Source: a virus. From it: DNA of 36,663 nt. The position numbers were made by a program, and so were the translations under genes. The stretch is from positions 1 through 36,663 of the IMG/VR virus record IMGVR_UViG_3300034012_000630, one strand, 5' to 3'. The number at the start of each line of letters is the position of its first letter. Position 1 is the first letter of the stretch. Shown here one piece after another: positions 18,859 to 34,803 of this stretch. A model generated the notes under the pieces. It was not told the DNA's origin, ran no database searches, and saw nothing but the letters and a program-made list of their open reading frames with translations.

Positions 18859-19113
18859 CTATTGGGCTACAGTGAAAACCACTTGCTTCACTACCGTTGG
18901 GATACCGTTCACGCTTGTCGTGACCGTACGGGTCATTGGGCTACCGTCGGGATTAGTTGCCAATGCACCTAGTACCTTGAGTTGGCTTGCACCGTGACGG
19001 TTGAAGGCTTGTACTTGCTCGCCTACTTTCGCGCCTACTTGCTCGGCTACTGCCAGCCCAAATACTTTCTTATTGCCATTGTTGCCAATGACACACCACA
19101 CTGCGCTATTCAT
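18859..19113 (-). CDS. Hypothetical protein, 84 residues
   Basis: The function is not recognised. The protein is small and soluble with a beta-rich pattern: MNSAVWCVIGNNGNKKVFGL, then alternating polar/hydrophobic strands ending GIPTVVKQVVFTVAQ. The ATG at 19113 has GAAAGAGAG upstream. The gene stands alone, with the repeated leader element (copy a) before it and a good terminator after it. The Gly/Asn turns and the repeated 'VG..V.AF' pattern suggest a small beta barrel or sandwich. A single-gene unit with its own leader and terminator suggests independent, probably abundant expression, but this is inference. Confidence 0.65.
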   Translation of the reverse strand: MNSAVWCVIGNNGNKKVFGLAVAEQVGAKVGEQVQAFNRHGASQLKVLGALATNPDGSPMTRTVTTSVNGIPTVVKQVVFTVAQ

Positions 19114-19136: not shown

Positions 19137-19190
19137 GTGAGGACTACCCTCACACTTCCATTATGCCCGCCCGCTGAAATTGGCTTGCAT
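19137..19190 (-). promoter_or_regulatory. Repeated leader element, copy a (most divergent)
   Basis: A six-base stem GTGAGG/CCTCAC (19137-19153) is followed by the linker ACTTC and a diverged form of the shared core (TGCCCGCCCGCTGAAATTGG). It begins 24 bases upstream of the 84-residue gene's start. It shares hairpin position, the CACACTTC linker and core spacing with copies b-d. Confidence 0.5.
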
Positions 19191-19328: not shown

Positions 19329-19496
19329 CTACACTCTGGCTTTAGCCCTGTCATTGGCTAGAGCACTCTTCAACTCATACACCAAGTCGCTAACCAAGCC
19401 CACATGGTTGTAGTCAGGGTCATAGAACTCCTTGATGCCACTGTCATGCACACTCTGCCAGTACTTGATGGCTTTGTGCACTGCTTGGCGGTTCAT
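19329..19496 (-). CDS. Hypothetical protein, 55 residues
   Basis: This small gene starts with ATG overlapping the previous stop as ATGA (19496-19493), so it is translationally coupled to the 154-residue gene. The protein is helical and charged: MNRQAVHKAIKYWQSVHDSG, then IKEFYDPDYNHVGLV and a second helix SDLVYELKSALANDRAKARV. No family is recognised. Coupling suggests it works with the 154-residue protein. The exact four-base overlap and a full open frame give reasonable confidence despite the length. Confidence 0.6.
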   Translation of the reverse strand: MNRQAVHKAIKYWQSVHDSGIKEFYDPDYNHVGLVSDLVYELKSALANDRAKARV

Positions 19497-19957
19497 GACT
19501 GCCCACCAAAGAACAGGCTGTCCATCGCTGTCTTTACGGCATTGACTTGGCGCTTCTCGCCTGTCATCTCGTAATGGGCAGCTGCATTGCTATCGGCAAT
19601 GTCATCGTAGCCGTACTCCCAACCACGACGGTATGCACACAAAGCACGCACTTCGTACTGACCCTTGCGCTTGTTGAACGACAAGTCCCAAAGCATTGGG
19701 AACTTATCAGCCTCATAAGCAAGCGTAGCAGCGCAATACTCCTCAAGCCTATCGCGATAGTACTTGGCTTGGTTGTAAGCAAAACGCTTGTTCCTGTTTT
19801 TTACGACTGGGTATGTGCCAACTAAGCACCACTCGTCAAGGTTGTCCAAGATGAACTGCAACGCTGCCCTACGGGTCTGGCGCATCAGTTCTTTCTTGCC
19901 AACAGTTGGCGTTGGCTTACGAGGTGGGTCACTAACACTAAACGAATGGGCTAACAT
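19493..19957 (-). CDS. Hypothetical protein, 154 residues
   Basis: The function is not recognised. The ATG at 19957 has AAGGAG at ideal distance. The first 25 residues are Pro/Thr-rich, followed by a helical and aromatic body rich in Tyr, Arg and Trp (KRFAYNQAKYYRDRLEEYC, later RALCAYRRGWEYGYDDIADS). Three Cys are present but not in a metal-binding pattern. It is preceded by leader element b and followed by the coupled 55-residue gene, so the two form their own unit. It shares no visible similarity with the other genes behind the same repeated element. Confidence 0.65.
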   Translation of the reverse strand: MLAHSFSVSDPPRKPTPTVGKKELMRQTRRAALQFILDNLDEWCLVGTYPVVKNRNKRFAYNQAKYYRDRLEEYCAATLAYEADKFPMLWDLSFNKRKGQYEVRALCAYRRGWEYGYDDIADSNAAAHYEMTGEKRQVNAVKTAMDSLFFGGQS

Positions 19958-19992: not shown

Positions 19993-20053
19993 GTGAGCGG
20001 AATTGCTCACACTTCAGTTTGCCTGACCGCCGAGTTTGGGTCGGTATGGGCAT
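19993..20053 (-). promoter_or_regulatory. Repeated leader element, copy b
   Basis: Stem GTGAGC/GCTCAC with loop GGAATT (19993-20010), linker ACTT, then the core CAGTTTGCCTGACCGCCGAG continuing GTTTGGGTCGG. Compared with copies c and d, the paired bases CCCGA/TCGGG become CCTGA/TTGGG, which still pair using wobbles. It lies 36 bases before the 154-residue gene. Confidence 0.65.
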
Positions 20054-20201: not shown

Positions 20202-20915
20202 TTACTCATCTCCTTCCGTTGGGTTGAGGAATCCATTGGGCTGATATTCCTTGATTGCCTCAATCATCATTGCCCAAATCTTTGGCTGTGATGCCTTGAA
20301 CTTAGGTGCAACAATCTGTGCCTCGCACAAGTGCATAAGCAAGTCTCTCTGCTTCTCGCTCAGTACGCCTATGGTCTGCTTAATTGTTTGCTTTGTCTCA
20401 TCGTCAAACATGAGGTAGAAACTGTGGTCAGGCTTGTCGGTGCGCTCAAGGGTTACTGCAATGCCATTGGGGCTAGACATAGCAATAAGCGATGAGTTCT
20501 TGTACTTGGCATGCATAAACAAGGACACATAATCAGTGGCTTCGTATAGCGAACACACAAGAGCCTTATCGCTAAGGAACTTGAACATGTCTGTGGCTGA
20601 GTGCACACCAACAGCAGGTTGCATGCGAGCATGGACAGGTTCACCACTGCCTACGCCTATGTACTCTGCCATTGCAGGGCCTACAACCTCTATGCCATCG
20701 TCAGGGTCACTGAACTGCGCTTCGCTAATGATTGTGCCAACGCAAAGCATTGCCTTGACCTCTGTGTTCTCTGCAAGGAAATCGTCAGTCATTTGCCGTG
20801 ACTCACGCATCAAGCGCATTTGCAACTCTTGCCACTCGCTCTTGATGCCTGAAAAAGCGTCTTTGACAACGTTCTCCAGTTCTCCAAGCACATCGTGCTC
20901 GTCTTGCTTGCTCAT
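20202..20915 (-). CDS. Hypothetical 237-residue protein ending the MoxR-VWA operon
   Basis: The protein is soluble and acidic. It starts with a predicted helical, coiled-coil-like region (about residues 8-60, GELENVVKDAFSGIKSEWQE), then a mixed beta region with 'YKNSSLIAMSSPNGIAVTLE' and 'HSFYLMFDDETKQTIKQTIG', and a helical end. No enzyme motif is visible. The ATG at 20915 overlaps the VWA gene's stop as ATGA, so it is coupled to it. Since MoxR-VWA pairs usually act on a third protein, this gene or the 162-residue gene at the front of the operon could be the client or adaptor. That role is inference. Confidence 0.68.
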   Translation of the reverse strand: MSKQDEHDVLGELENVVKDAFSGIKSEWQELQMRLMRESRQMTDDFLAENTEVKAMLCVGTIISEAQFSDPDDGIEVVGPAMAEYIGVGSGEPVHARMQPAVGVHSATDMFKFLSDKALVCSLYEATDYVSLFMHAKYKNSSLIAMSSPNGIAVTLERTDKPDHSFYLMFDDETKQTIKQTIGVLSEKQRDLLMHLCEAQIVAPKFKASQPKIWAMMIEAIKEYQPNGFLNPTEGDE

Positions 20916-22246
20916 CTGCTACCTCCTTGTAGGCGCTTCATTAGTTTCTCTGCATCCTCAACATTATCTACGCGTACAACTCTGTGCTTGCGAGTAATGT
21001 TCTCGATGTCTTTTAGCAAATTGCGGTTAGTATGACCTGCGTTTACGCCTGTGACATAGCCATCGCTAACCCAAATAAGTGGCTGTGAACCACGCTCTCT
21101 GAGTGATGCGGCATACACAAGTGCAGGGCCATCTACAGCGTTATCGCCAGGTACTTCGGGCAGCCGTCTAACCATGCGACCCTTCCTAGCAATAACCCAT
21201 ACATTCGGCTTGTCGGGCTTGTTTAGTCCGCCTGAATACATGAGTACAGTTGCACCTGCTGATGCCTTAAGCAAACGGTCTAGGTCACTTTCTGACAAGT
21301 GCATAGAACCCGATGCGTCAATAACAACAACACCGCCAAGCGCTTTGGTCTTGCGACTAAACACACGCTTGTCAGGGTCACTAACCATGCGATTGAGGTA
21401 GCGTATTTCTCTGCCACTGTCACTCGCGATAGTCCTGCGACCCAACTTGCCTGTGTGGTTGATGCTTAGTTCTGGCTTAGAAACAACAAGTTGCTCCCAG
21501 TCGCCAATAAGGTCACTGTCTTTGGGGTATGCCCTGTGTGGTGACTGTGCCTCTGTCTTGGCTTTCCTTCTGCCTTGTTGCTCATTGACTTGCTCGTTGG
21601 ACATTCTGTCAATGGCTTGTACAAACCAAGACCAATCCTTGATAGCACGCTTCTGCTGTATCTTGCTCTTGCTGTTTATCATGGTAAGCCTGAATACAAG
21701 GTCATAGTCATACATATAACTAAGCACTTGGTTCTCAAACTCCATGAGTTCTGCAGCCAATCGCTTGTCTGCAACATTGCGTATCAAGTCAATAAAGGCT
21801 TGAGTACCAGCATGGCTAATCGCAGACAGAATGGCAGGCTTGGGCGGGTTGCCTTCGCTAAGCACACGTGCGAGGATTGTGGTTTCGGTAGTGCCAATGC
21901 TTGGGTCTTGCCTAAACGTATGGAAATGACGCGCATTAGCAAGAACACGGCAAGCAGCCTCTATGGACACTTCCGATACTCCCCAACGCTTTGCGTATTT
22001 CTTGGTTTCTGGCAAGTCATAGCGACTGCGTATGAGCACATACCTGCGTAGTGTCTCTGCAACATCGCTATCACCAGTTGGCGCCTTGACTTGGTGCTTC
22101 TTCTTGGCACTTGTGCTAAAGGTAACACCTACAGAGTCGATGGAGTATGCCTCTCCATCGCTCTGATAGGTATTCTCCTTGAGCATTGGCCTGTCAGGAA
22201 GCACTTCTGGCGCAACAATATTGCGCTTGGTGCTGGTTTGGCTCAT
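20912..22246 (-). CDS. VWA-domain protein with complete MIDAS motif, partner of the AAA+ ATPase
   Basis: The 444 residues divide into a helical N-terminal region (about 60-220), a basic linker (about 220-300) and a C-terminal VWA domain (about 303-444). The metal-dependent adhesion site is visible as DASGSM (Asp310, Ser312, Ser314) with WVSDG (Asp395). Strands such as GGVVVID and VWVIARKG fit the fold. The helical half resembles what is seen in CobT/ViaA-like partners of MoxR ATPases, though I cannot name the family. The ATG overlaps the ATPase stop by one base. Known pairs (NorQ-NorD, CbbQ-CbbO, RavA-ViaA, CobS-CobT) remodel or insert metals into client proteins; the phage client is unknown. 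Confidence 0.82.
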   Translation of the reverse strand: MSQTSTKRNIVAPEVLPDRPMLKENTYQSDGEAYSIDSVGVTFSTSAKKKHQVKAPTGDSDVAETLRRYVLIRSRYDLPETKKYAKRWGVSEVSIEAACRVLANARHFHTFRQDPSIGTTETTILARVLSEGNPPKPAILSAISHAGTQAFIDLIRNVADKRLAAELMEFENQVLSYMYDYDLVFRLTMINSKSKIQQKRAIKDWSWFVQAIDRMSNEQVNEQQGRRKAKTEAQSPHRAYPKDSDLIGDWEQLVVSKPELSINHTGKLGRRTIASDSGREIRYLNRMVSDPDKRVFSRKTKALGGVVVIDASGSMHLSESDLDRLLKASAGATVLMYSGGLNKPDKPNVWVIARKGRMVRRLPEVPGDNAVDGPALVYAASLRERGSQPLIWVSDGYVTGVNAGHTNRNLLKDIENITRKHRVVRVDNVEDAEKLMKRLQGGSR

Positions 22247-23004
22247 TAGAATGTGCTCACATTCTGAGCAGACTCAGGTCGAGCGATATTCTGCACTGAT
22301 TCTGACTGCGTGATAGCCAATGCACCAACGATGCTGTTAGCAATGCGTGGCAAGCAAACACGGGCAGATGCCTCTAGGTTGCCGCTTGACTTGAGCAAGC
22401 CTGCAAATGCAAAGAATGAACGCAATGAGTAGCGGTCTGCGTCATCACGCATGGAGTACTCAAGTGCAATGTCTCGCAATTCGGCTGGCAATGCTGCAAT
22501 AGCATCAGGATGTGGTTGCTCAATCTCTACGCGAACAACAAGACGGTCAAGAACTGCAGGAGACAGGTCATCTGGCTCGCCGTTCATGGTTGCAACAACG
22601 CTAAAGCCCTGTGCTGGGCGAATGATTTCGCCAGTCTCTGGGTGCTCAAACGATGAAGATGCAACTGTGTCAATGATTGCCATAAGGCGTGCCTCAATGT
22701 CACCGTTCACACGATTGATTTCGTCTACAACAAGACGACCACCTGTACGCCATGCCTTGATGGCTACGCCTTCCTCAAAGCGCCAGATGCCGTTGTCGTT
22801 CTGCTTGTACTTGCCAATCATGTCGCCGTCTGTCATTTCGTCTGTGCAGATGAGGCGGTACGACTTGCTTGTACCGAGGTGGTAGTTGAGACCAAAGTAG
22901 GTCTTGCCTGTGCCTGGCTTGCCGTAAAGCAATACACGGTCTAAGCCGTTAGCCATTGCAAAATTGGCTGTATCCCAGCCAGTAGTAAGGGTTGATGTTG
23001 TCAT
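22246..23004 (-). CDS. MoxR/CbbQ-type AAA+ ATPase
   Basis: A 252-residue AAA+ ATPase of the MoxR/CbbQ group. It shows Walker A GKPGTGKT (residues 28-35), a substrate-loop region (TDEMTDGDMIGKYKQND), Walker B LVVDE (Asp94, Glu95), sensor-1 Asn141 in VVATMNG and an arginine finger in LDRLVVRV (Arg154). A short helical lid follows. It should form a ring that uses ATP to remodel a protein through its VWA partner, encoded directly downstream. The ATG overlaps the previous stop as ATGA. Length and single-domain layout match stand-alone MoxR proteins; MCM-like or sigma54-activator ATPases are excluded by the missing GAFTGA loop and extra domains. Confidence 0.9.
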   Translation of the reverse strand: MTTSTLTTGWDTANFAMANGLDRVLLYGKPGTGKTYFGLNYHLGTSKSYRLICTDEMTDGDMIGKYKQNDNGIWRFEEGVAIKAWRTGGRLVVDEINRVNGDIEARLMAIIDTVASSSFEHPETGEIIRPAQGFSVVATMNGEPDDLSPAVLDRLVVRVEIEQPHPDAIAALPAELRDIALEYSMRDDADRYSLRSFFAFAGLLKSSGNLEASARVCLPRIANSIVGALAITQSESVQNIARPESAQNVSTF

Positions 23005-23489
23005 TTGTTGCCTGCTTTCTTGGTTAGTGATTTTGTGATAAGCGCTGATATTGCATCAGCCATTGAGCCAGTTCCTTCGCCCTGTGATTCCACAGTGTCT
23101 GGGTCTTGCTCAAACCTTAAGAATGTTTGTCGTGAGCCATGCTCACAAGCAGTTGCAAATACGCGAACGCGCTTTCTGTCTTTGTGCTGACTAGGAGGCA
23201 CATCGCTTTCGTCACTGTCATCGTCAGTGATAGGCGCTGCCCAGCCGTAAGTAACAACAGCAATAGCAATGTTGTCATACTTAGACAAGTCAGTAGAAGC
23301 ATCCTCGTTGTCAAGTAACTCATACACATCGCTGTTGAAGTCAATGAGTGAGTAAACACCCTCTTCATCGATGTGATAAAGCCTTGCATTTGAGTAATTG
23401 GCTTCGTGGTCAAAGGCTGTGCCTTTGCGTTTGTCCTGCTCGAACAAAGCACTTTCGGCTTTGCTAAGCACTGTGTTGGATAATGACAT
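23001..23489 (-). CDS. Acidic 162-residue protein heading the MoxR-VWA operon
   Basis: No named family. The start is the ATG at 23489, which has GGGAGA upstream; the open frame extends to 23534 without a better start. The middle holds a beta-rich block (YDNIAIAVVTYGWAAPI), an acidic loop (DDDSDESDVPPSQH), then KDRKRVRVFATAC and FLRFEQDPD. A similar block (GAWMGP...PSEHPEKR...FVIRFEDG) occurs in the 208-residue protein at 23660-24286, so the two look like distant paralogues. Leader element c lies just upstream, and the gene is coupled to the ATPase by ATGA. It may be a regulator or client of the ATPase-VWA pair. Confidence 0.7.
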   Translation of the reverse strand: MSLSNTVLSKAESALFEQDKRKGTAFDHEANYSNARLYHIDEEGVYSLIDFNSDVYELLDNEDASTDLSKYDNIAIAVVTYGWAAPITDDDSDESDVPPSQHKDRKRVRVFATACEHGSRQTFLRFEQDPDTVESQGEGTGSMADAISALITKSLTKKAGNK

Positions 23490-23514: not shown

Positions 23515-23573
23515 CGGGCTGAACTGCCCGACACACCCAGTCTGCCCGACCGCCGAAATCGGGGCTCCCATGG
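23515..23573 (-). promoter_or_regulatory. Repeated leader element, copy c
   Basis: Stem CGGGC/GCCCG with loop TGAACT (23515-23530), linker ACACAC, then CAGTCTGCCCGACCGCCGAA continuing ATCGGGGCTCCCATGG. The core can fold as CCCGA/TCGGG. It is nearly identical to copy d over 24 bases. It lies 26 bases before the operon's first ATG and starts about 17 bases after the upstream terminator's T tract, leaving little room for a separate promoter. Confidence 0.7.
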
Positions 23574-23659: not shown

Positions 23660-24286
23660 TTACTCGGTGTCCTCCTCTATTACTTTCTGAATTGATTCCA
23701 TAATCTCTAGGTATTCGTCTGGCTCGTGTTCTCGCAGAGCAGTTGGTAGGTAGTCGAAGTCGAGTAGTGCATCGACCAGTCGTTGCTGCCCACCGGCTTG
23801 TCCTTCGTTGTACTCATCCTCTGTTAGATAGTTAACATCGGTGGTGCCATCTTCGAATCGAATTACAAAGAACACATGGTTGTATGTGAATGTTGCAGTG
23901 ATTACACAGCTTCTTTTCTCCGGGTGTTCTGATGGGCGAACCTCACCTGTTGGACCCATCCATGCGCCAGCTCGCACCATAGTGCCAATCTTGCCATTGA
24001 CCAAAGCATTAGCAACAGCTAGCTGCTTGTTCTGCAACCCGTCGTAAAGGTCTTCGCCTTCACCTACGAGCACAGCTGAGATTGCGTCTTCCTCAAACGA
24101 ATCGGTGCCGTCACGATCTGCAGTTGATACGACTGCCCATATCTGACCACGTGTGCCCGGATCACCATACTTATCGTTGATTTGTTCTTCTACTTGCTTT
24201 AACGATTCGATAACAACATCAATTGCATCGCTGATTATCTCTTGAGTTACATCCTCAAGGATTTCTTTTGCTTGCTCGTCACTCAT
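23660..24286 (-). CDS. Hypothetical acidic protein, 208 residues, paralogue of the operon-leading protein
   Basis: The start is the ATG at 24286, with GGAGAG at correct spacing. Upstream the frame is open but crosses leader element d, so an earlier start is unlikely. The N-terminal 50 residues are acidic helix (SDEQAKEILEDVTQEIISDA). A beta-rich domain follows (IWAVVSTADRD, then GAWMGPTGEVRPSEHPEKR and FFVIRFEDGTTDV), and the C-terminus is helical and acidic. The GP...PSEHPEKR...F.IRFED pattern is shared with the 162-residue protein at 23001-23489. It is a single-gene unit closed by a strong terminator. Function unknown. Confidence 0.7.
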   Translation of the reverse strand: MSDEQAKEILEDVTQEIISDAIDVVIESLKQVEEQINDKYGDPGTRGQIWAVVSTADRDGTDSFEEDAISAVLVGEGEDLYDGLQNKQLAVANALVNGKIGTMVRAGAWMGPTGEVRPSEHPEKRSCVITATFTYNHVFFVIRFEDGTTDVNYLTEDEYNEGQAGGQQRLVDALLDFDYLPTALREHEPDEYLEIMESIQKVIEEDTE

Positions 24287-24321
24287 TGCTCTCTCCAATC
24301 TAAAGGCGGGTTTGCCAATTC

Positions 24322-24360
24322 CAGTTTGCCCGACCGCCGAAATCGGGCCGACATGGGTAT
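24322..24360 (-). promoter_or_regulatory. Repeated leader element, copy d
   Basis: CAGTTTGCCCGACCGCCGAA continues as ATCGGGCCGACATGGGTAT. The core can fold as CCCGA/TCGGG. It lies 35 bases before the 208-residue gene and touches the stop codon of the gene before it. A weak GGCG/TGCC hairpin lies on its gene-proximal side (about 24305-24315), where copies a-c have stronger stems. Confidence 0.7.
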
Positions 24361-30865: not shown

Positions 30866-31027
30866 TCAGTCTTTCTTTGATAGGGTTAATGAAGAGTGTA
30901 CCAAAACGGCTATGCCTGTAATTAGGGCTGCCTGCCGGAGCGTAGGCCCGGATAGGGTAATGAGAACCATGCCAGTCCCGGCCCAAGTCCAAGAGTTGTC
31001 CGCTAGGTAATCAAGAATCTTTTTCAC
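30866..31027 (-). CDS. Very small membrane protein, 53 residues
   Basis: GTG 31027 overlaps the previous stop by one base (TAGTG), and the TGA lies one base before the next ATG. The product begins basic (VKKILDYLADNSWTWAGTG) and has two short hydrophobic stretches (MVLITLSG and AALITGIAVLVHSSL) ending LSKKD. It is a holin or antiholin candidate together with the 81-residue protein. Exact tiling with both neighbours strongly supports a real gene. Confidence 0.7.
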   Translation of the reverse strand: MKKILDYLADNSWTWAGTGMVLITLSGPTLRQAALITGIAVLVHSSLTLSKKD

Positions 31028-32529
31028 TAGTTCTTGATTCTAACACCAGCCGCTGCGAGGGTTATGCCCGCCGTAATAGCTACCAATGTCCGTCGTGTGC
31101 CAACCGGCACATTGGAACCAATAGGGACATAGGTATCTAAGCCGGATTTGAAGATGTCGATTTCATCCTCAAAAGCTTCACGTACTTCACTGGGAGCTTC
31201 CTGGACCGCTGCAATCAGTTCTTCTGTCTGCTCCTCGCTTAGCTCTTCCACATCGAGAGCTTGGAATATCTCAGCTGCTTGTTCGCTGCTAACTACAGCA
31301 AGCACTTCGGGAGATGTAGCAAGCGCTGCTGCTTGTTCTTGTGTTGGCTCTTCGGCAAGGATTGCGTCGATTACCTGTGCCACCTGCTCTGGTTCCAGTT
31401 CGGCTAGGGCTTCGACGAGCTCTTCTACGCTCTCGGCTTCTTCAATAAGAGACGTGACCTGCTCTTCGGTGAGCGAAACGTCTGGCTCTAAATTTGGCTC
31501 TAAATCTGGAGCGATGGTGGAGGTGGTCGTTTCCTCGATAACCTCTGGGTATGTTTCTTGACTTGCTTCAGTTGTCGTGGTTGTTTCTTCTGGAGGCGTC
31601 TCCTCTTGGATGGGCTCCTCTACTACTGTCGTTGTGGTGCCTGTCGGCACTTCAACAATCTCTTCAGGAACGGAAGGCTCAACAGGTGCTGGCTCGTATA
31701 TTTGAGGGGGTTGAGTAGATGTTGACGACTCTGGCGGTAGTGTCGTGGTCGGGGCTAATACTGACGATGTTGTTTGCGGTACGGAAGAAGTAGTAGTCGA
31801 ACTAGTCGTCGTAGACGTAGTACTTGTAGTCGAAGAACTAGTTGAGCTCTCCGGTAAAACCACCGTCGTACTTGTCGTTGTAGTACTTGTCGTCGACGAG
31901 GTTGTAGTGGTCGTACTTGTCGTCGACGAAGTTGTAGTGGTCGTACTTGTCGTCGTTGTCGAACTCGAAGTTGAGGTTTCTGGAACTGTCGTAGTAGTCG
32001 GGACTGTGGCAGGGACAGTCGTTGACGGAACAGTAGTAGTACTTGTCGTCGACGACGTCGTGGATGTTGTTATAGATTCCCATAGAGACAGGTTGCTAAT
32101 AGAAAGAATACCAGGCGAGCAACAAGTATCTGTTGAGTATTGCCGGAACGAGAACAAGTCACCCTCATCGACCGGTACGGACAGCGAACCTGTCGCATTG
32201 TTCTGTTGTGTAATCAATGTGTATACGCCGTTGATTCCGTACTGTGGCGGGTCGTACACCCAACCATCAGTCGTCTGATATGCCCACTCAAAATCTATTG
32301 TGTCCACATCGGCCGGGATTGTGGTCTCAATCTTTACCCAGTGGGCAGCACCCGAACATCCGCCTTGGTCTGGGCCATGCAAGATAATTGTGTCGTCAAT
32401 TACTTCTACCGAGCCCGACGTTGGACAAGACTGGCTGTACGTCCATTCACCTAGTGTGTCGGCTTTAGCTGGCTTAGTAAACAGGGCAAACGCAATAGCC
32501 GGAATAATTATTAACCAGCGGGATTTCAC
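31027..32529 (-). CDS. Secreted, Thr/Ser-rich surface or wall-associated protein, 500 residues
   Basis: GTG 32529 overlaps the oxygenase stop as GTGA. A signal peptide is clear (KSRWLIIIPAIAFALFTKPA then KADT). Next comes a beta-rich domain of about 130 residues with paired Cys (SQSCP, GGCSG, DTCC), then a mucin-like Thr/Ser/Pro region (about 155-275) coded by tandem DNA repeats. A Glu/Pro/Thr linker and a highly acidic helical domain (about 350-460) follow. A final membrane segment (TLVAITAGITLAAAGVRIKN) anchors the end. Such layouts suit proteins displayed on or through the actinobacterial envelope. The function is unknown; position before the holins suggests late expression. Confidence 0.72.
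   Translation of the reverse strand: MKSRWLIIIPAIAFALFTKPAKADTLGEWTYSQSCPTSGSVEVIDDTIILHGPDQGGCSGAAHWVKIETTIPADVDTIDFEWAYQTTDGWVYDPPQYGINGVYTLITQQNNATGSLSVPVDEGDLFSFRQYSTDTCCSPGILSISNLSLWESITTSTTSSTTSTTTVPSTTVPATVPTTTTVPETSTSSSTTTTSTTTTTSSTTSTTTTTSSTTSTTTTSTTVVLPESSTSSSTTSTTSTTTSSTTTSSVPQTTSSVLAPTTTLPPESSTSTQPPQIYEPAPVEPSVPEEIVEVPTGTTTTVVEEPIQEETPPEETTTTTEASQETYPEVIEETTTSTIAPDLEPNLEPDVSLTEEQVTSLIEEAESVEELVEALAELEPEQVAQVIDAILAEEPTQEQAAALATSPEVLAVVSSEQAAEIFQALDVEELSEEQTEELIAAVQEAPSEVREAFEDEIDIFKSGLDTYVPIGSNVPVGTRRTLVAITAGITLAAAGVRIKN
31883..31956. repeat. 30-bp tandem repeat in the Thr/Ser-rich region
   Basis: The unit starts GTACTTGTCGTCGACGA and ends GTAGTGGTC; copies lie at 31883-31912 and 31913-31942, with a partial third to about 31956. 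It codes for Thr/Ser runs. Such repeats change length by slippage, so the linker length may vary between relatives. Confidence 0.8.
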
Positions 32530-33486: not shown

Positions 33487-34803
33487 TCAACTCACCGTCA
33501 AGTTTGCTGTGCTAGTAAAAATGTGTGCCGTGTAACCGCCGTAGGTTGCGGTAGATCCACCAGAAATAGTTCTCGTTCCTTTGTTTGCTGTTACATACCT
33601 GATAACCGCATATCCAGTTCCACCGTCTCCACCGGATTTTGCTCCAGAATGGATGTTCCCACCGCCTCCACCGCCGCCGTAGTTTGCGGTTCCAGCTGTT
33701 GCCGCTCCAACGTTTGAGTACAGTCCTGCACCACCACCGCCAGCACCACCGCTACCTCCGCAGCAACTTTGGTTTTGGCAACACCCACCACCACCGCCGC
33801 CACGAGTTATTGCGCCGCCATTAGTGTATGTTTCGTTTGCTCCGCTACCGCCGTTACCGCCGTTAGTTCCGCTTCTAGCACCGCCTCCACCACCAGCACC
33901 GCCTCCACCACCACCAGCATTGTTTGCACCACCGCCAGCACCGCCACCAAATCCGTTTCCACTAGCACCACCGTTATTACCCGAAGCCCCCTGCCCACCG
34001 CCTCCGCCACCAGCAGAAGTAAAACCAGTTGCCGATGTTGTTCCACCACTACCACCAGCACCAGCGGCACCACCACCACCGCCTCCACCAATACTTACAG
34101 TAATTGTTCCAGTAGAAATCGTTCGTGTAGATGTGACTGGTCCACCACCGCCACCTCCACCACTCGTGTTGAAGTTTCCACCACCGCCACCTCCACCGCC
34201 ACCAAGCAAGTATGCTTCAAGTTCAATTAATGTTGCAAATCCAAATCCAGCTGATTGTGGACCAACTCCATAAGCATTCTTGGGGCGCATATATACCACA
34301 TACGAATTTCCAGGAGAAAGACCAGTAAGGTTTTTAGGACTTGACGAAACACCAGCATCAACCCAACTGGTTAAATAAACATCGTAGCCAGTTATTGCAC
34401 TACCGCCAGCAGTTGTAGAGAAGTTTACAGTTGCTGTTGTTGTACCAATTGAAGTTACAGAACTGATAGTTGTTGTTCCTGTTGGAACTCCAGCAGTTGT
34501 AAATGAAACACCAGTCGATCCAGGACCAGAACCAACACCGTTGACAGCGCGCAAGTAGACCGTGTATGCAGTGTTTTGGGTTAGCCCGCTAACAGTAACT
34601 GGGCTTGCGGCATCAGCAGGGGAGAGAGCGGTCCATGTCGAGTTGTTGAATGAGTACTCATAGTTTGTGATGGAAAGCCCACCATCATTAGTTGGCGCAG
34701 TAAACGAAATTGCAACGTTTGTGTTTGTTGGTACAGCGCCTAAAGAAGTTGGCGCATTAACAGGTGCGGTTGGGTAGAAGTTAGAAATGCCAAGTATTTG
34801 CAT
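33487..34803 (-). CDS. Tail-fibre-type protein with two FN3 domains and a Gly-rich domain
   Basis: The 438 residues contain two fibronectin type III domains (about 12-106 and 107-200; repeats of GLTQNTAYTVYLRAVNGVG and GLSPGNSYVVYMRPKNAYGV). A long Gly-rich region follows (about 200-395) with LEAYLLGGGGG and a Cys cluster (GGCCQNQSCCGG). The C-terminal beta segment ends TAHIFTSTANLTVS. Gly-rich sandwich domains often occur at phage fibre tips and contact the host. The ATG lies two bases after the previous stop. It is probably a receptor-binding or adhesin component. Confidence 0.82.
   Translation of the reverse strand: MQILGISNFYPTAPVNAPTSLGAVPTNTNVAISFTAPTNDGGLSITNYEYSFNNSTWTALSPADAASPVTVSGLTQNTAYTVYLRAVNGVGSGPGSTGVSFTTAGVPTGTTTISSVTSIGTTTATVNFSTTAGGSAITGYDVYLTSWVDAGVSSSPKNLTGLSPGNSYVVYMRPKNAYGVGPQSAGFGFATLIELEAYLLGGGGGGGGGNFNTSGGGGGGGPVTSTRTISTGTITVSIGGGGGGGAAGAGGSGGTTSATGFTSAGGGGGGQGASGNNGGASGNGFGGGAGGGANNAGGGGGGAGGGGGARSGTNGGNGGSGANETYTNGGAITRGGGGGGCCQNQSCCGGSGGAGGGGAGLYSNVGAATAGTANYGGGGGGGNIHSGAKSGGDGGTGYAVIRYVTANKGTRTISGGSTATYGGYTAHIFTSTANLTVS

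Follow-up and report, generated by a model that had tools for sequence, protein, structure and literature searches.

The virus record IMGVR_UViG_3300034012_000630 of IMG/VR (36,663 bases, analyzed over its whole length and hereafter called the window) encodes a module that, judged from its sequences, comprises a MoxR-type AAA+ ATPase (P0002), a VWA protein (P0003), and three paralogous accessory proteins (P0005, P0001, and P0004). The trio of MoxR, VWA, and accessory protein recurs in two unrelated phage lineages of ~40 kb and ~150–170 kb, which suggests that the MoxR-VWA motor and at least one accessory protein work as one machine. We hold, with a probability of about one half, that the module is a remodelling machine of the NorQD/CbbQO kind with dedicated adaptor or client proteins that act inside the cell.

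The MoxR-VWA pair and its accessory proteins

The initial annotation described four coupled minus-strand genes between positions 20202 and 23489. Their coordinates are borne out, as are the junctions AAATGACA, CTAATGAG, and AGATGAGC (ATGA, TAATG, and ATGA overlaps, respectively), and the MoxR and VWA genes share one overlapping base. The four genes are therefore real, but the module is larger, because a fifth gene (23660–24286) belongs to it. The five genes are as follows:

23660–24286, minus strand: accessory protein 1, P0005, 208 aa; isoelectric point (pI) 4.1, charge about -31; profile match to the P0001 family
23001–23489, minus strand: accessory protein 2, P0001, 162 aa; pI 4.6; 'GWAxP..PSxHPxRxRVRL' family
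22246–23004, minus strand: MoxR-type AAA+ ATPase, P0002, 252 aa; Pfam AAA_5; invariant catalytic residues
20912–22246, minus strand: VWA protein, P0003, 444 aa; pI 9.7, charge about +17; N-terminal helical domain and C-terminal VWA domain with a complete metal ion-dependent adhesion site (MIDAS)
20202–20915, minus strand: accessory protein 3, P0004, 237 aa; pI 4.75; remote P0005 paralogue by profile comparison

P0002 matches Pfam AAA_5 (5e-15), and its catalytic residues are retained across 30 relatives: no variation occurs in the Walker A residues G28, G31, G33, and K34, Walker B E95, sensor-1 N141, the arginine finger R154, or sensor-2 R195, and almost none in Walker B D94. When its family profile was compared with solved single-domain chains, NorQ (1.8e-16) and CbbQ (5e-13) were the nearest relatives. 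P0002 matches PHROG 16448 and P0003 matches PHROG 33218, which are named only 'ATPase' and 'unknown function', respectively, and neither is tied to the accessory family. A tblastn search of 50,697 phage records found only remote relatives of MoxR (n = 67), and the same search with P0001, P0003, P0004, and two further members of the accessory family returned nothing.

P0003 finds no match among the sequence families of Pfam, NCBIfam, or the PDB, so that it is identified as a VWA protein by its MIDAS pattern and its predicted structure. The MIDAS residues (D310/S312/S314, D372, and D395) are invariant in 30 of 30 relatives, and the AlphaFold2 model (mean predicted local distance difference test score [pLDDT] of 87.9) has as its best structural match the VWA domain of NorD in the NorQ complex (9qh6; Z 10.8 over 160 residues, root-mean-square deviation 3.6 Å), whereas other VWA domains reach Z values of about 9 or lower. 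The alignment with NorD spans model residues 238–441 and reaches upstream of the VWA core. Both the ATPase and the MIDAS protein are therefore intact, as had been read from the sequence. The N-terminal domain of P0003 aligns with that of relatives carrying an HExxH metallopeptidase motif. This motif is present in 12 of 30 VWA family members, including all 11 of the large-phage clade, and is absent from all 13 members of the window's clade (the window and 12 relatives). When the VWA family was compared with one CobT sequence, that of DSL-LC01, the probability was only 12%, and the result was discarded.

Turning to the accessory proteins, an iterated profile search with P0001 (jackhmmer) recruits P0005 (E 8e-24), and the two have a common conserved core (GWAxP ... 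PSxHPxRxRVRL in P0001; GAWMGP ... RPSEHPEKRS in P0005). Profile comparison with hhalign links the P0001 and P0005 families (98.1%, E 1.3e-13) as well as the P0004 and P0005 families (96.2%, E 2.5e-9, about 189 columns, which is most of their length), and the P0005 paralogue group is monophyletic in the tree (support 100/99). The direct comparison of the P0004 and P0001 profiles was not significant, and the membership of P0004 consequently runs via P0005. The large phages also encode, upstream of their MoxR gene, a 230-residue protein (L028, L058, L070, L080, and L085; e.g., L070:11380-12081) whose link to the family is weaker (73%, E 3e-5) and which probably represents another remote member. 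Control comparisons set the P0004, P0005, and 230-residue profiles against 44 families of neighbouring genes; besides themselves, the accessory family alone scored, with the next best at 1.7% or less, and for P0004 no other family exceeded 1%. These profile matches identify P0001, P0004, and P0005 as paralogues of one superfamily. The idea of a MoxR-VWA machine that is complete and has accessory proteins on its flanks is supported. Instead of an unrelated adaptor and client, the two flanking proteins are paralogues, and another paralogue is encoded upstream.

The AlphaFold2 model of P0001 is confident (pLDDT 92.0, predicted template modelling score 0.86), but its comparison with the PDB gave only noise (Foldseek E 0.056 or worse; best VIA Z 5.2). 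We claim no fold for the modelled protein; a missing PDB match does not prove a new one. The model matches those of viral proteins, including Catdawg gp79 (E 7e-5). PDB sequence searches with the accessory family gave implausible hits, which were rejected.

Recurrence of the module and relatives of the accessory family

When records were picked by the accessory protein alone and then searched whole, MoxR was found in 31 of 50 and VWA in exactly the same 31. MoxR and VWA were present together in 9 of the 10 accessory-bearing records of at least 100 kb and in 18 of the 22 of at least 50 kb. Conversely, 38 of 49 MoxR-VWA records contain the accessory protein; among the 11 that lack it, eight have a MoxR that is 29–39% identical to that of the window, and one is a 9.5-kb fragment. 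All of these records are contigs of related phages, so that the counts are not independent events and have no formal background rate. The terminase of the window is present in seven contigs of the ~40-kb class (73–99% identical) and was not found in any 150–170-kb contig, and the MoxR genes of the ~40-kb and large-phage groups form two clades (support 100/99 each).

Gene order is P0005-P0001-MoxR-VWA-P0004 in the window's group and P0005-MoxR-P0001-VWA-P0004 or MoxR-P0001-VWA-P0004 in its cousins. Close relatives do not place the pair among unrelated neighbours: those contigs of the ~40-kb lineage that extend far enough retain the same ones, at times in the order MoxR-accessory-VWA.

The pair could also be a CobST-like cofactor system by which the phage boosts the insertion of cobalt or another metal, for example to feed a B12-dependent ribonucleotide reductase (RNR). 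Phage MoxR-VWA pairs are widely annotated as cobS/cobT, a hijack of host CobN has been proposed for such pairs (PMC8651126), and matches to the RNR large subunit, not assigned to a class, are present in 14 of 25 scanned phage records. These matches (roughly 644–671 residues) come from 14 of the 18 large-lineage records scanned (e.g., G036, G053, and G058), whereas RNR was not found in any of the seven scanned records of the ~40-kb class, some of which are fragments. Moreover, neither CobT nor any other curated model matches P0003, P0002 scores 21.9 and 20.5 bits against chelatase models with cut-offs of 467 and 779, and the accessory proteins are left without a role, making this explanation improbable.

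Conservation differs among the components of the module. Between the window and its relatives L007–L012, identity falls from MoxR (80–93%) to VWA (50–75%) and then to the accessory proteins (32–64%); for L008, for example, these values are 85%, 61%, and 39–44%, respectively. This order is as expected if the accessory proteins face a changing target. The same pattern is used by a reading as a conflict module, in which the machine would dismantle or inhibit a host defence or other complex and the fast-evolving accessory proteins would recognize the target. The accessory proteins are the fastest-evolving components and are similar to a family that possible hosts encode, and bacteria have MoxR-vWA ternary conflict systems (PMC7159879), whose logic would be comparable. 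Nevertheless, we regard this reading as unlikely, given that the module has no effector domain, that none of the ternary types described in PMC7159879 was recognized among models that did not include VMAP, and that PADLOC gave weak P-loop hits only. Assignment to a known defence system was dropped on the same PADLOC result.

The P0001 motif was found at 148 viral loci, 80 of which were kept, and, in a scan of a bacterial-genome collection with the accessory motif as sole query, at 39 bacterial loci. The latter are nearly all labelled actinobacterial, many of them Acidimicrobiaceae or Ilumatobacteraceae, and among sampled whole genomes the gene is present in 3 of the 149 from the phylum and in 6 of the 80 from the class. 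The cellular gene lies near an IclR-type regulator and directly before nadA at 34 of the 39 loci, and the order leuCD-iclR-P0001-nadAB recurs among these loci (L125–L163, mostly Acidimicrobiia-type genomes). A role in NAD biosynthesis was dropped as a candidate, because the context is a single one, conserved on the chromosomes of one bacterial group, and may reflect plain synteny. P0001 itself scores 6e-4 (19.9 bits) against the uncharacterised PPA1309 family (NF040618), below the cut-off of 70 bits, and 14 of 68 P0001 relatives match it, also well below the cut-off (best 1.4e-5). The match involves the conserved C-terminal stretch of P0001 and the gene context differs, and the accessory family is likely a distant relative of the PPA1309 family and no member of it. 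It is conceivable, if rather unlikely, that phages took a conserved actinobacterial protein, duplicated it, and put the copies under a MoxR-VWA motor, so that the machine captures or replaces the host homologue and takes over its process.

A remote P0001-like protein is also encoded in 31 Mycobacterium phage records (Catdawg gp79; Corndog gp83). The Catdawg gene (L173:1310-1942) adjoins that of a phage DNA polymerase III beta clamp, and no MoxR-VWA of the window's kind was found in Catdawg. Five peptides of Corndog gp83 were reported from once-banded and none from twice-banded virions (PMC4351075), which is weak evidence against a virion role. This result bears on the possibility that the MoxR-VWA pair is a virion-assembly chaperone that folds or processes head or tail proteins, as with ATV p618/p892 and in jumbo phages. 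Such a function has been proposed for viral MoxR-VWA pairs, in PMC7824862 and by Scheele et al. 2011 as reported in citing papers, and in the window as well as in close relatives of it, a few kb separate the module from the gene for the large terminase. Apart from the Corndog particles, two observations point the other way: the recurrent neighbours of the module in the 150–170-kb phages, which are partly annotated, are mostly small genes without a recognized structural role, and HExxH, a possible motif of a virion-protein protease, is absent from the window's clade. We therefore consider a virion chaperone rather unlikely.

Leader, terminator, and genome context

A separately controlled module had been proposed on the grounds of its own leader element and terminator, and neither mark held. 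The following elements were located:

24321–24347, minus strand: leader copy ahead of P0005; exact core CCCGATTTCGGCGGTCGGGCA; repeat family D5
23537–23563, minus strand: leader copy ahead of P0001, then a hairpin (23515–23530) with covariation
20014–20040, minus strand: third leader copy, ahead of gene 19493–19957, from the repeat search
19158–19184, minus strand: fourth leader copy, ahead of gene 18859–19113, from the repeat search
23635–23598, minus strand: intrinsic terminator in the interval between P0005 and the P0001 operon; 16-pair stem, T-rich tail

The 27-base leader element (starts at 24321, 23537, 20014, and 19158) precedes four transcription units, each time ahead of a gene start, and is also found in relatives, with a common altered core in the copies of L007. 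The stem sequence of the hairpin that follows it varies between copies while pairing is kept (68% of cells paired, compared to 49% for shuffled controls and no more than 51.5% after sliding), with changes on both sides in all six pairs. The leader matches no Rfam family, and a known riboswitch was dropped as a candidate on this basis. Together, leader and hairpin are possibly a phage-wide regulatory RNA or a transcript-stabilising element. The strong terminator lies upstream of the quartet and ends the P0005 gene, and none was found directly 3' of the 237-aa gene. With this terminator between it and the remaining four genes, P0005 is probably transcribed as a separate unit that carries the same leader.

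Elsewhere, the window contains genes for terminase, portal, major head protein, recombination nucleases, RusA, and endonuclease V, along with a WhiB gene (Pfam search), which indicates an actinobacterial host; the virus is a probable actinobacterial virus. Two repetitive stretches were noted, one with CCACCGCC-type repeats (33650–34210; coding strand glycine-rich) inside a tail-like gene (33487–34803), and one with low-complexity repeats at a spacing of 15 bases (31781–32065) in a 500-aa gene (31027–32529).

Proposed mechanism and comparison with known systems

As a remodelling machine, the module would work as follows. P0002 would form a hexamer that carries the VWA protein P0003, and an extension of the VWA domain, by analogy with NorD, would enter the pore of the ring. 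ATP hydrolysis would then exert a twist on the VWA protein together with any ligand bound at its MIDAS. The acidic paralogues (P0005, P0001, and P0004) may be three dedicated partners, most likely seated on the basic VWA protein, where an acidic accessory side chain could complete the MIDAS, and they would act as clients or as adaptors for an intracellular target and not as virion parts. Adaptors or clients on the VWA protein are favoured because the charges are opposed (VWA +17, pI 9.7; accessory proteins -13 to -31; MoxR and the three accessory proteins pI 4.1–4.9) and because the accessory proteins are the least conserved.

Several observations weigh against this remodelling machine. Many proteins of this size are acidic. 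The similarity of P0003 to NorD is one of structure, with no shared sequence family, and Foldseek by itself is weak (best probability 0.90). P0001 is encoded several kilobases from the MoxR-VWA pair in the large phages, so that the accessory protein need not be a subunit. Finally, no MoxR-VWA was found near the accessory genes at the 39 bacterial loci; since the family occurs without the pair in cells and in Corndog phages, it has a function of its own.

MoxR-VWA pairs are already known from viruses, where they are widespread and often labelled as vitamin B12 genes, and hardly any of their clients have been described beyond one archaeal virus. The novelty lies in the family of paralogous accessory proteins, in the cellular relatives of that family, and in the way it is repeatedly coupled to the pair. 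A partner family that recurs in two unrelated lineages is a concrete candidate for a client or adaptor, and its members in cells, together with a remote relative in the Corndog mycobacteriophages, for which a genetic system exists, open the phage machine as well as an uncharacterised actinobacterial family to testing.

The phage and archaeal-virus cobS/cobT pairs of P-SSM2, DLP6, DSL-LC01, and GMA2 all combine MoxR with a protein in which HExxH is followed by VWA, and are annotated as cobS plus 'peptidase', 'cobalamin biosynthesis', or 'porphyrin biosynthesis'. Their AAA domains are about 27–34% identical to that of the window, whose clade lacks HExxH, and the accessory family was not found among their tested neighbouring genes. 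A similar pair, MoxR beside a vWA protein whose N-terminal domain is a metallopeptidase, is described in group 2.2 jumbo phages by Iyer and colleagues (PMC7824862). It resembles the 150-kb relatives, in contrast to the window's clade without the catalytic motif, and the passage on this pair does not mention the accessory family.

The closest cellular counterpart is NorQ-NorD of Paracoccus, which is kin to CbbQ-CbbO. There, the pore of the AAA+ hexamer receives a finger of the VWA domain, and the MIDAS holds the target by its acidic residues. Powered by ATP hydrolysis, NorD is twisted and stretched, which remodels the target (PMC13036017, PMC9976466). Compared to this system, P0003 has a different N-terminal domain and no detectable NorD sequence family, and the module is phage-encoded, with three paralogous accessory proteins and no known metalloenzyme target. 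What the two have in common is a MoxR ring partner and a C-terminal VWA domain with a MIDAS.

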